From the NCBI GenBank assembly GCA_030830185.1, contig JAURNN010000007.1, forward strand, positions 1 through 38,740: DNA of 38,740 nt, in the 5' to 3' direction. Under the pieces are notes generated by a model, which was not told where the DNA came from, did no database searches, and saw nothing but the letters and a program-made list of their open reading frames with translations. Below, piece after piece: positions 16,850 to 25,559 of the stretch. The translations under genes and the position numbers were made by a program. This DNA comes from Bacillota bacterium. Lineage in GTDB: Bacteria; Bacillota_I; Bacilli_A; Acholeplasmatales; Acholeplasmataceae. Position 1 is the stretch's first letter, and each line of letters begins with the position of its first letter.

Positions 16850-17491
16850 TTAATTGACGCGATCTGGATTTAAATCATTTAGTGGAATTGAAATATATTC
16901 AGTGACAACCAGAGGATCAACTCGATCACTTAATACTTCGTTATAAGTAACCTTTAAATAAAGAATTGGATCTGTAATACTTACTAGAAACATTGGGCGA
17001 TAAGGATATAAAACATTATGCGTTAATGTGAAGACTGTATTCGATGTCGTAAGACCAAAAGGGAGAATAACTCTTGGTTGAGCAATGTCTCTATTAATTG
17101 AAAATAAAGGTTGAATGACAGGAGTGACTTTAATATCGTTTATATCTTTATTATTTTCAATCTCATATGTAATTCTGAACTCCATACTACCATTTGATAA
17201 ACTACCATCTTCATTTTCAATAGGTTTGGTTAGTTTAAGCCAATCGACATAAAGCGTAATATCTTCTAAGTCATCTAAAGATTTAAAATTTCTTACATAA
17301 ACACTATCTTCAGTGACTTCAAAATCAAAAGTGACGCGAGTCGATTGTAAATAAGGGCTTACATATGCAATTACAATAAGAAGTAAAGGTGTTAAAACTA
17401 AAAACAATGATAATGCAATTTTAGTTCTATATTTATGAAACAAACTCAATAGATTAGGTTTTGACGGATTATTCGTATGACTATTAGACAT
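16850..17491 (-). CDS. Unknown protein with one N-terminal membrane anchor
   Basis: I do not recognise a family. The 213 residues have a polar, basic N-terminus (about 25 residues), one strong hydrophobic segment (IALSLFLVLTPLLLIVIAYV, ~29-48) and then an extracytoplasmic-looking domain rich in beta-type residues and acidic turns, ending DLNPDRVN. There is no lipobox Cys, so it is more likely an anchored protein than a lipoprotein. AGGGGA precedes the ATG by about 8 bases. It is a single gene set against the flow between recA and rny, with its own promoter and a shared terminator. Its function cannot be inferred. Confidence 0.75.
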   Translation of the reverse strand: MSNSHTNNPSKPNLLSLFHKYRTKIALSLFLVLTPLLLIVIAYVSPYLQSTRVTFDFEVTEDSVYVRNFKSLDDLEDITLYVDWLKLTKPIENEDGSLSNGSMEFRITYEIENNKDINDIKVTPVIQPLFSINRDIAQPRVILPFGLTTSNTVFTLTHNVLYPYRPMFLVSITDPILYLKVTYNEVLSDRVDPLVVTEYISIPLNDLNPDRVN

Positions 17492-21482: not shown

Positions 21483-21542
21483 AAGTAATTCATGAGAATT
21501 TAAGTAAAGATGTAAAAAAACTGAATATTTTATTGTTGAATG

Positions 21543-21571
21543 TTGATAAACAAGCCTTTTTCATGTATGAT
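21543..21571 (+). promoter_or_regulatory. Promoter of the unknown membrane protein gene
   Basis: TTGATA (21543-21548), a 17-base spacer ending in TG, then TATGAT (21566-21571). It lies in the 118-base gap after miaB, which has no clear terminator. GGAGG is 8 bases before the ATG at 21601. Confidence 0.72.
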
Positions 21572-21600
21572 TAAGATATGTAAGGTTGGAGGTATTTAGT

Positions 21601-23052
21601 ATGGCAAAATTACAATTACAATCACAAATTAACGTGAATCAAGAATCAGTCACATTAGAGTCACTTTTACACGAATTACAAGGTCTAGAGGCTGAACAAT
21701 ATGTTTCTGTATTTCAAAATGCCAATTTTTTACTACCTCGCCAACTTAGAATGGATGTTTTGCGTCATTTATTAGAATCTAGTGTCAAACAAACAAGAAA
21801 AGAAAGATTAACACTTGCTGATGAACTTAATTACCGTTTGAAATGGTTTTATCAATATTCTGATTTTCAATACGTGAATTTATTGGTTTATTATCAAAAT
21901 AAAAAACTTAATCAAGCATATGTAGAAAATTTATTAACATCTGTATGTGAGCATTTAGTTGAGCAGAAGCGTGAGGATATTATCCAGTCATTAAGAGATG
22001 CGAAAAAAGCGCAACAAGATTCATATGATTCTCAAAATATTTTACTCTTCAATCAAACATTCAATCAAATATTTAAAGATAAAGAGTTAGAAATTGATGG
22101 ACTTCCTTTAAACTTAATTCGACTTGTACTCCTAAAAAGTTCAACGCTACAAGAACTCAAAGCATTTGGAGAAAAATATGGTATTATTGTCCCAAGAAGA
22201 TTAAAAAAAGAACAACTTCTAGAACTAATTTATTTGGAGCTTCAATCACGTGGTATTTTGACAGATGATATAAAAGCTGAACTTAAAAAGAAATCTGTGG
22301 TACTTATTCAAAGATATGCAATTGATCATGATATTAAAGTATCGACTGAGCTTAAAAAAGCTGAAATTATTGAGTATATCTTAGAATTTTCACACCAAAC
22401 AAAATCATTTTATAAATACCCACAACCTGGTGATTACGAACTTGAAATTGATGACCCATTTGAATTTGAAGAGGTATCAGAATTAAAAGAGAAGACTTCA
22501 AAACCTACTCCAATTCCAGTGATACCTGTGGTTGCTAAACCAAACAAAGAAAAAACTTCAAAAACAAAAGACAAAGTAGAGACATCTAAACCAGAAGTGA
22601 AGCCTCAACAACAAACGCAAGAAGATATTGTCAATTCTAAAGGTGTCCCACTTGTTTTAGATCGTCAAACAGCTAAGTTTTTAAAATTATATGCGATTAG
22701 TAACAATCAAAAATTAATGATTTTACCTGATAGAAAATATCATAAGAAAAGAAGAACATTTAAAGTTCAATTAGATCAACTAGGAAGTGTATCAACACCT
22801 AAGAAAAATAACGGTGTTATTGGTGAACTCCTAATCTTAAAACTTTTAGCACTCGTAGTCTTTAGAACACTAATCTTTGTATTTGCGATTGCGTTTGTCT
22901 TAGGATTACTTTTTGTAGGCTATGCAACAGCAAGTTACTTCTTAAATATCGAAGCACTTAATATGATTAATGATCAAATAAATACAATTGAATTTTTAGG
23001 TAAAGGACTATTAGATCATATATTTGATTTTTATCGTCAAATAGGTATATAA
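21601..23052 (+). CDS. Unknown C-terminally membrane-anchored protein with SAP/Rho-N-like segments
   Basis: No family recognised. From the ATG at 21601 (GGAGG 8 bases ahead; the track's 21586 is a TTG lying on that site) it has 483 residues. Seen: a helical N-terminal region (1-175); two helix-loop-helix segments resembling SAP, Rho-N or HeH motifs, LQELKAFGEKYGIIVPRRLK (~182-217) and LIQRYAIDHDIKVSTELKKA (~231-263); a Pro/Lys/Thr-rich linker (~295-345); a basic stretch RKYHKKRRTFKV (~377-388); and a hydrophobic segment of about 35 residues (~410-448) before a short tail. A membrane-tethered nucleic-acid-binding protein is possible but is inference only. It occupies the place of ymcA-cotE between miaB and mutS. 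Confidence 0.8.
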   Translation: MAKLQLQSQINVNQESVTLESLLHELQGLEAEQYVSVFQNANFLLPRQLRMDVLRHLLESSVKQTRKERLTLADELNYRLKWFYQYSDFQYVNLLVYYQNKKLNQAYVENLLTSVCEHLVEQKREDIIQSLRDAKKAQQDSYDSQNILLFNQTFNQIFKDKELEIDGLPLNLIRLVLLKSSTLQELKAFGEKYGIIVPRRLKKEQLLELIYLELQSRGILTDDIKAELKKKSVVLIQRYAIDHDIKVSTELKKAEIIEYILEFSHQTKSFYKYPQPGDYELEIDDPFEFEEVSELKEKTSKPTPIPVIPVVAKPNKEKTSKTKDKVETSKPEVKPQQQTQEDIVNSKGVPLVLDRQTAKFLKLYAISNNQKLMILPDRKYHKKRRTFKVQLDQLGSVSTPKKNNGVIGELLILKLLALVVFRTLIFVFAIAFVLGLLFVGYATASYFLNIEALNMINDQINTIEFLGKGLLDHIFDFYRQIGI

Positions 23053-23075: not shown

Positions 23076-25559
23076 ATGTCTGAAAATATCAAACATACGC
23101 CAATGATACAACAATACTTAGACATCAAAGAAGACTACGCTGACGCGATAGTCTTTTTTAGACTTGGTGATTTTTATGAGATGTTTTTTGATGATGCTAA
23201 AATAGCCTCAGAAGTTTTAGACATCACACTTACTTCACGACATAAAGAATCAAATATACCGATGTGTGGAATTCCCTACCATGCTTCAGTTTTATATATT
23301 CAAAAACTTATTAAAGAGGGATTTAGTGTTGCAATTGCTGAACAAGTGACTGCACCCGGAAAAGGGCTTGTTGAAAGAAAAGTAACGCGTCTGATTACAC
23401 CAGGTACGGTGCTTGATGAAGGATTACTAGATCCTACCAATCATAACTATTTAGCTGGCTTATCCATGGATGAAACTGCTATTGGATTAAGTTTTTTTGA
23501 TATGTCCACTGGACAAGGATTTGTGTATGCATGTCAAAATATCGAAGAAGCTAAAGCACTTTTTTTATCATATGGTGCAAAAGAAATCATCATAAATATC
23601 GATGTTTCTTGGTTTTCAGAGATTAAAAAAACGGTTTTAAAAATTCCAAAGTCATTTGATATTCAAGCCACTAGAAATCTTACAGGACATTTAAAAGAAA
23701 GTGTGCAATTATTACTATTTTATGTCCATCAAACACAACAGCATCCTGTTTCTCATATTGTACCTTTTGAAGAAGTGAAATTAGAAGAACACATGCATAT
23801 TGAATCTCATGTGATGACAAATTTAGATATTTTTCATCCAGAAAAAAAGCAATCGTTGTATTATTATTTAAATGAAACAAAAACAGCGATGGGTAGTCGA
23901 TTACTGGCTCATATTCTAAAAACGCCTAGTAAAAATTTAAAGATCATAGAAACACGTTTAAATGACATTGAAAAAACAACGAATCACCCTCAAGTTTCAC
24001 AAATACATGCTCATTTCACATCTATCTATGATGTCTATCGTTTGCTTCAAAGATTTATGTATCAACGTGCAAATCCAAAAGATATCATTCAGTTAAAAAA
24101 TTCTTTAAAACAAATTGCTTTGATAAAAGATTCACTAGTGGAACTAAACATATTTGAATCTGAAATAGCGGCTCTAAATATCAATCCAGAATTATTTACG
24201 TATTTAGATCAAGCCATTATTGATGATCCACCAACATTAACAACAGAGGGTGGATTCATTAAAAAGGGATTTGATGACACGTTTGATCAGCTTTTGTATA
24301 CAATGGAACATCATCAATCTATACTGGATGTATATTTAGATGAAGTTAAACAAATCACATCCATTAAAAATATTAAATTAGGATATCAAAGACTTGTTGG
24401 TTATTTTTTTGAAATCAGTAAAATCTATAATGATCAAATTGACACGTTTGATTTTTTTGAGCGAAAACAAACATTAAAAAATGTAGAGAGATATACAACA
24501 AAACACTTAAAAGATATCGAGAAAACGTATCTTGATTCAGAACATAGAAAACTTGAAATCGAAAAATCATTGTTTGAAACTGTTGTTTTATACATACAAA
24601 ATCATTATCTCGAATTATTAAAAGCGTCTCAATCCATCGCTTATTTAGATGTTATTTGGTCTTTAGCACTTGTTTTCAAAAAAAATCAATACATCAGACC
24701 AACATTTAATACAAATTTTGAGATTGAACTTATGGATGCCAGACATCCGATTGTTGAAAAACATACCCGATTTATTAAAAATCAAATTCATATGACAGAA
24801 CACGATCAAATGATGCTGATTACGGGTCCTAACATGAGCGGAAAATCTACATATATGAGAATGGTTGCAATCATTGCTTACATGGCTCAATGTGGGTTAT
24901 TTATTCCGGCGTCATATGCTCATTTACCATTATATGATGCAATTTTCACACGTATTGGTGCTAGTGATGATATCTCAAAAGGCTTATCGACATTCATGAC
25001 TGAAATGACTGAAACAAATCATGCCCTTTCACATGCAACAAAAAATAGTCTATTATTATTTGATGAAATCGGAAGAGGAACCTCAACCTATGATGGTATG
25101 GCACTTGCTCAAGGTATTTTAGAATACATCCATGATGATATTGGTTGCCATACATTATTTTCAACGCATTACCATGAACTTACGGATTTAGAACATCATT
25201 TAAAGGGATTAAAAAACTATCATGTTGCTGCAAAAAAGCAAGGCCAATCCATGACCTTTTTACATGTTGTTAAACCAGGTAAAAGTGATAAGTCATATGG
25301 TGTTGCTGTTGCTTCTTTAGCACGTTTACCTGAAAAAATTATTAAACGTAGTCAAATGATATTAAACGCATATGAAGACATGCACATAAGACAATCAACA
25401 GATTTATTTACATATCAAGATGATGCTGTTCAAGTAGAGGTTCATCCTATTATAGAAAAATTAAAAAAGATGTCTATAAATCATTTAACACCTCTAGAAG
25501 CACTTCGTATTTTATCAGAATTCATTGATGACCTGGAGGATCAAGATGCCGAGTATTAA
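23076..25559 (+). CDS. mutS: DNA mismatch repair protein MutS
   Basis: Recognises mismatches and starts repair. The 827 residues are full length: mismatch-binding domain I with FFRLGDFYEMFFDDA (FxE motif in FYE), connector and lever domains, and an ATPase with MLITGPNMSGKSTYMRM (Walker A, ~585-601), LLFDEIGRGTSTYDGMA (Walker B and signature) and TLFSTHYHEL. A C-terminal stretch follows. The only Shine-Dalgarno-like sequence, AAGGA, is about 14 bases before the ATG, which is unusually far; no in-frame ATG, GTG or TTG start is closer. mutL overlaps its end by 14 bases. Confidence 0.98.
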   Translation: MSENIKHTPMIQQYLDIKEDYADAIVFFRLGDFYEMFFDDAKIASEVLDITLTSRHKESNIPMCGIPYHASVLYIQKLIKEGFSVAIAEQVTAPGKGLVERKVTRLITPGTVLDEGLLDPTNHNYLAGLSMDETAIGLSFFDMSTGQGFVYACQNIEEAKALFLSYGAKEIIINIDVSWFSEIKKTVLKIPKSFDIQATRNLTGHLKESVQLLLFYVHQTQQHPVSHIVPFEEVKLEEHMHIESHVMTNLDIFHPEKKQSLYYYLNETKTAMGSRLLAHILKTPSKNLKIIETRLNDIEKTTNHPQVSQIHAHFTSIYDVYRLLQRFMYQRANPKDIIQLKNSLKQIALIKDSLVELNIFESEIAALNINPELFTYLDQAIIDDPPTLTTEGGFIKKGFDDTFDQLLYTMEHHQSILDVYLDEVKQITSIKNIKLGYQRLVGYFFEISKIYNDQIDTFDFFERKQTLKNVERYTTKHLKDIEKTYLDSEHRKLEIEKSLFETVVLYIQNHYLELLKASQSIAYLDVIWSLALVFKKNQYIRPTFNTNFEIELMDARHPIVEKHTRFIKNQIHMTEHDQMMLITGPNMSGKSTYMRMVAIIAYMAQCGLFIPASYAHLPLYDAIFTRIGASDDISKGLSTFMTEMTETNHALSHATKNSLLLFDEIGRGTSTYDGMALAQGILEYIHDDIGCHTLFSTHYHELTDLEHHLKGLKNYHVAAKKQGQSMTFLHVVKPGKSDKSYGVAVASLARLPEKIIKRSQMILNAYEDMHIRQSTDLFTYQDDAVQVEVHPIIEKLKKMSINHLTPLEALRILSEFIDDLEDQDAEY

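Follow-up and report, generated by a model that had tools for sequence, protein, structure and literature searches.

Between miaB and mutS, the window (the whole stretch of 38,740 nucleotides that was analysed) carries a gene, called X here, that starts 118 bp downstream of miaB. An earlier note, made from the sequence alone, had outlined its product as a membrane-tethered protein with tandem SAP- or Rho-N-like motifs. The reading frame is open in the standard genetic code and, consequently, the host is not one of the mollicutes that read TGA as tryptophan. The features of the gene and of its surroundings are the following.

21543..21571, + strand: promoter-like site TTGATA-N17-TATGAT (scan; 10 of 12 positions match; the best of the region)
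21588..21592, + strand: Shine-Dalgarno sequence GGAGG upstream of the ATG of X (sequence)
21601..23052, + strand: coding sequence of gene X, a predicted membrane-anchored, tandem Rho_N-like protein of 483 aa (coding 21601-23049, ATG 21601, stop 23050-23052)
21664..21792, + strand: module 1, putative degenerate helix-extended-helix, residues 22-64, with conserved P46
22132..22242, + strand: module 2, Rho_N, residues 178-214 (K192, P198, R200, K203; Pfam, AlphaFold2 model, conservation)
22285..22395, + strand: module 3, Rho_N-like, residues 229-265 (S248, L251, K252, K253; hhalign, AlphaFold2 model)
22426..22731, + strand: variable Pro/Lys linker, acidic and rich in Glu, Pro and Val in most homologues (alignment, composition)
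22732..22764, + strand: basic patch RKYHKKRRTFK, residues 378-388 (sequence)
22843..22923, + strand: predicted transmembrane segment, about residues 415-441 (Kyte-Doolittle 2.76; N-terminus predicted inside from charge bias)
22930..23049, + strand: C-terminal tail of about 40 residues, predicted outside, with a GKG(L/I)LDH-type motif (alignment)
23076..25559, + strand: mutS (NCBIfam MutS, 830 bits), start codon 23 bp after the stop of X

The Pro/Lys linker, the basic patch and the C-terminal membrane segment, all three described in the earlier note, are thus present in X. The same note had proposed a strong promoter. Promoter-like sites are no more frequent in this region than expected by chance (8 found, 10.8 expected). 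Nevertheless, the 10-of-12 site upstream of X has been conserved where the sequence around it has diverged: in the same-genus relative L032, 29 of 33 positions at the site are identical, compared with 46 of 85 in the other intergenic sequence (permutation p=0.002). The short gap between X and mutS and the lack of a terminator-like site between them in a scan of this region make co-transcription plausible. Probably, X and mutS-mutL share a transcript that starts at the promoter of X, in agreement with the earlier suggestion that this promoter may also drive those genes. A search of the window for known RNA families gave no match.

The interval 21483-21600 lacks ymcA (Com_YlbF), which stands between miaB and X in most relatives. 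The assembly of the window's genome (G000), which is 83% complete, has no PF06133 match, and the same-genus loci are also devoid of ymcA. Further upstream, between recA and rny and on the opposite strand, a predicted gene at positions 16850-17491 encodes a protein of about 212 aa whose N-terminal part includes a hydrophobic stretch. This protein matches nothing in Pfam or NCBIfam, and many relatives have a counterpart in the same position.

Modules, linker and membrane segment

X scores 27.2 bits against the Pfam family Rho_N (PF07498; gathering cut-off 24.9; E=3.7e-6) over two stretches, the best at residues 178-210, and its N-domain alone reaches 29.0 bits. A Rho_N match is also found in 39 of 40 aligned homologues at E<=0.1, with 8.6e-11 as the best value. 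By comparison, HeH (PF12949) gives 7.6 bits on X, below its cut-off of 28.9, and reaches E<=0.1 in 8 of the 40 members, while the Pfam scan gave no SAP match in X and SAP_new25 is weakly matched in 3 of the 40. Of the three types that the earlier note had left open, Rho_N by these profile scores fits X far better than SAP or HeH.

That note had recognised two modules. Both are there, at residues 178-214 and 229-265, and they are mutual repeats (hhalign probability 94.6, p 7e-8), but a third and degenerate one, at residues 22-64, had been missed. When module sub-profiles from an alignment of 55 homologues are compared, module 1 aligns with module 2 in the same register (hhalign probability 60, p 9e-5). 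It has the pattern FFxxxGLxxPRxLRxxVL, its P46 is kept in 87 of 98 members, and a low-confidence model predicts helices at 31-42 and 47-64. As predicted from these comparisons, X carries two good and one degenerate helix-extended-helix modules.

Structure prediction had been put forward as a check on the module region. An AlphaFold2 model of residues 160-272 (pLDDT 72.6) forms a helix, a short strand and a helix, twice, with high confidence only centrally (pLDDT 82, 90, 95, 91 and 81 in the 10-residue blocks at about 200-249). The alignments used for folding held only three close sequences, and the model of residues 1-285 is consequently weak (pLDDT 50, pTM 0.30). PDB fold searches with the X models gave no significant match, which can be expected for modules so small, and PDB sequence searches were empty or marginal, again with no significant match. 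The N-domain profile marginally matched 1jjr (E=0.63), annotated as thyroid autoantigen, which we take to be the C-terminal SAP region of Ku70, and the repeat profile weakly matched 1zwv, a lipoyl-E2 subunit-binding domain (E=0.85). In addition, residues 178-210 match a PHROG of phage endonuclease VII (E=4e-4).

Across residues 166-270, nine alignment columns are at least 70% Lys or Arg, compared with six acidic columns. Within the modules, the conserved Lys and Arg occupy the loops and the second helices, and K203 and K253 are conserved at 95% and 92%, even outside the usual gene order. Averaged over 96 members, however, the two-module region has a net charge of 0, so that a strong basic face is not evident. 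Residues 65-165 are also well conserved (D74, E75, R79, L80, Q90, L91). A DUF4508 match at 74-129, seen in 2 of 40 members only, and a D-alanyl-alanine synthetase match far below its cut-off were set aside as noise. The idea that X is a residual rho gene was rejected, as Pfam and NCBIfam find neither the OB nor the ATPase domain of Rho in it.

The N-terminal 275 residues are conserved, whereas the length of the linker varies greatly across the family, which is the pattern expected of a tether. By hydropathy, a hydrophobic segment follows the N-domain in 84 of 98 members, and some of the 14 members without one are truncated at contig ends. In family f5, 5 of 10 members (L005, L029, L067, L068, L072) are intact and have no membrane segment, several of them ending in basic tails, so the anchor is not indispensable. 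Many members have 35-50 residues after the segment and others 0-9; in f16, f23 and other families it lies at the very C-terminus. The GKG(L/I)LDH-like tail motif is found in many members of f1, the family of the window, and is absent in the families that end at the membrane segment.

Distribution and gene neighbourhood

Phylogenetic spread had likewise been suggested as a check, and X proved to be no orphan. Homologues occur in 58 of 61 near relatives. A search of 395 genomes of the class with the N-domain profile gave 103 with X at E<=0.001, of which at least four have no more than single-motif fragments in frames with stops. In the phylum sample, no genome from outside the class is among the matches listed at E<=1e-6. 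The only genus of the window's family without X is g8, with small genomes that, to judge by their size and family, are Phytoplasma-like and that lack X in 7 of 7 cases. A tree of 97 N-domains largely follows taxonomy, and the label for gene position changes 7 times on it, against 18.4 when shuffled. The X family is clade-wide over at least eight families and mostly vertically inherited. It is genuine and conserved, and no searched library names a role for it beyond the Rho_N domain. Nothing on the family was found in the open-access full-text literature; a paper outside open access could describe it. A phage, plasmid or defence origin was rejected, as X has no relatives in viral contigs, plasmids or phages and no PADLOC match.

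By an adjacency rule, X is a direct neighbour of miaB, mutS or miaA in 78 of 98 members, most often in the arrangement miaB-(ymcA)-X-mutS-mutL. The order rny-ymdB-miaB-(ymcA)-X-mutS-mutL-miaA recurs, whole or in part, in f1 to f5, f16 and f24. In two examples, Pfam assigns the small gene that separates miaB from X to Com_YlbF/YmcA. One fixed gene position in most genomes of a large set of Bacilli allies suggests a core role for X. In B. subtilis, the gene between ymcA and mutS is presumably cotE; no relation between X and CotE is claimed.

Members outside the usual slot are mainly paralogues in varied places. In f16, paralogues lie at L119:4675-5829, L129:1749-2900 and L137:4719-5843; at two of these loci the paralogue is upstream of genes that, judged by eye, resemble hisS-aspS, and it adjoins others that resemble those of a signal peptidase and of exported proteins of the TasA type. 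In one genus of the window's family, several divergent copies of X lie elsewhere than beside mutS (L057, L058, L060 and L061; genomes G009 and G022), as if the family had expanded there.

Parts of the neighbourhood can be missing. Family f23 (L109, L122, L134) has lost mutS and mutL and keeps X between miaB and miaA; its MutS-like matches show about 30% identity over the ATPase part only, as expected for MutS2. The Phytoplasma-like genomes keep rny and have neither mutS nor X. Thus, X is tied to neither MutS nor RNase Y. The adjacency to mutS on which the earlier note had remarked is real, but the tie that it implied is only positional, since X persists where mutS and mutL are lost. In the window's genus and in part of f24, X is kept and ymcA is absent.

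The cut-off for rho is exceeded in only 6 of the 395 genomes, one of which, G074, has a distant X-like gene. As X-bearing genomes almost never have Rho, the Rho_N domain of X cannot be explained as a side effect of Rho. It is conceivable that X stands in for Rho, though the ATPase is absent. In a sample of 149 genomes, X never occurs together with a second gene of the ParB type (Noc). A genuine X is missing from all 56 genomes that carry two ParB/Noc-type genes, and the X-bearing genomes among the matches listed at E<=1e-30 have a single such gene each. This pattern follows a few deep clades and, being effectively one or few events, is weak evidence.

Possible roles of X

The Rho_N domain of the terminator Rho is likened to X by the score of X over the cut-off, by the predicted helix-extended-helix form and by the PxRLKKxEL pattern. 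By contrast, X has neither the OB-fold RNA-binding domain nor the ATPase, the hexameric ATPase being a feature of Rho; it has two or three modules per chain and a C-terminal membrane anchor, and its genomes are mostly without Rho. In Bacillus, Noc combines a DNA-binding part with a membrane anchor. RocS of Streptococcus is built of the same two elements (PMC13042908). Both resemble X in coming from Bacilli and in being membrane-anchored, DNA binding being a prediction in the case of X. Unlike X, they use helix-turn-helix or ParB-type DNA binding and amphipathic-helix anchors; no sequence relation was found, and the comparison is not a detailed one. Plastid RHON1, described in titles cited in PMC5897788 as an RNA-binding protein that supports RNase E, shares with X a Rho_N module in a non-Rho protein and, as a plastid protein, is likened to it by description only. 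The HeH/LEM proteins Src1/Heh1, MAN1 and LAP2 of the nuclear envelope tie nucleic acid to the membrane (PMC4810098) and, as is predicted for X, join a helix-extension-helix module to a transmembrane segment. Nevertheless, they are eukaryotic, and the two membrane spans and MSC domain of their non-metazoan members (PMC4810098) are not seen in X. RHON1, the Src1/Heh1-type proteins and RocS would be functional parallels of X only.

The explanation that we prefer, with a confidence just short of even, is that X is a membrane-anchored nucleic-acid-binding adaptor, RNA being slightly favoured over DNA as ligand. X would cross the membrane once, and its N-terminal 275 residues, from the predicted topology, would face the cytoplasm. 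The Rho_N-type modules most likely bind nucleic acid, and X would keep RNA or DNA on the cytoplasmic side of the membrane. The flexible linker would be the tether, free in its length, and the basic patch beside the membrane may help electrostatically. The function of X would not be mismatch repair, despite the probable joint transcription with mutS-mutL. Nucleic-acid binding is favoured by Rho_N being the best family, by the endonuclease VII match and by the Lys/Arg columns in the modules, while the zero net charge and the binding of proteins by related modules call for caution about this prediction.

If the modules behaved instead like LEM or lipoyl-E2 subunit-binding domains, X would be a protein-protein scaffold that holds a protein partner at the membrane, for instance RNase Y, the ribosome or a nucleoid protein, with no direct contact to nucleic acid. 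We consider this rather unlikely. It would suit the neutral module pair and the appearance of 1zwv among the weak repeat-profile matches, LEM domains bind BAF (PMC4810098), and the conserved residues 65-165 could be an interaction domain; yet almost all members score best with Rho_N, and Lys and Arg are conserved in the module loops and second helices. An accessory role in mismatch repair, with X bringing MutS/MutL or their substrate to the membrane, is far less credible. X adjoins mutS-mutL and is probably co-transcribed with them in most members, and both X and mutS are missing from the Phytoplasma-like genomes. However, X is absent from most genomes of the class, and the retention of X in f23, where MutS is gone, led us to reject X as a mismatch-repair partner.

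The DNA and RNase Y readings are special forms of the best explanation, and the confidences placed in them overlap with it. In a clade that lacks Noc, X might attach the chromosome to the membrane by binding its DNA, as a bacterial analogue of fungal Src1/Heh1, of Noc or of RocS. This has a low probability in our estimation, although the exclusion of X from the two-ParB/Noc-gene genomes, the link that RocS makes between DNA and membrane (PMC13042908), the binding of DNA by HeH domains of fungal membrane proteins (PMC4810098) and the endonuclease VII match all point to it: the X/Noc pattern is that of few deep clades, some clades have neither gene, and HeH and SAP fit worse than Rho_N. That X would be the bacterial counterpart of an HeH/LEM tether, holding the nucleoid at the membrane in this Noc-less clade, is distinctly doubtful. 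A similarly low probability attaches to an RNA adaptor that hands RNA over to the membrane-bound RNase Y, much as RHON1 supports RNase E in plastids, and that is functionally part of the rny-ymdB-miaB-ymcA neighbourhood. The order recA-rny-ymdB-miaB-(ymcA)-X-mutS is kept over many families, rny and miaB stand beside X even in f23, which lost mutS, and RHON1 offers a precedent (titles cited in PMC5897788). Nevertheless, RNase Y can do without X, as rny is kept and X is lacking in all seven Phytoplasma-like genomes; X occurs without ymcA in the window's genus and in part of f24; and the neighbourhood is an old one of the Bacilli, so that gene position says little about such a link.

Should the preferred adaptor reading hold, with X as a membrane tether for RNA or DNA, it would offer a simple account of how transcripts or the nucleoid are organised in the absence of Rho or Noc. 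It would also mean that the membrane-anchored helix-extended-helix design of nuclear envelopes arose in bacteria too.
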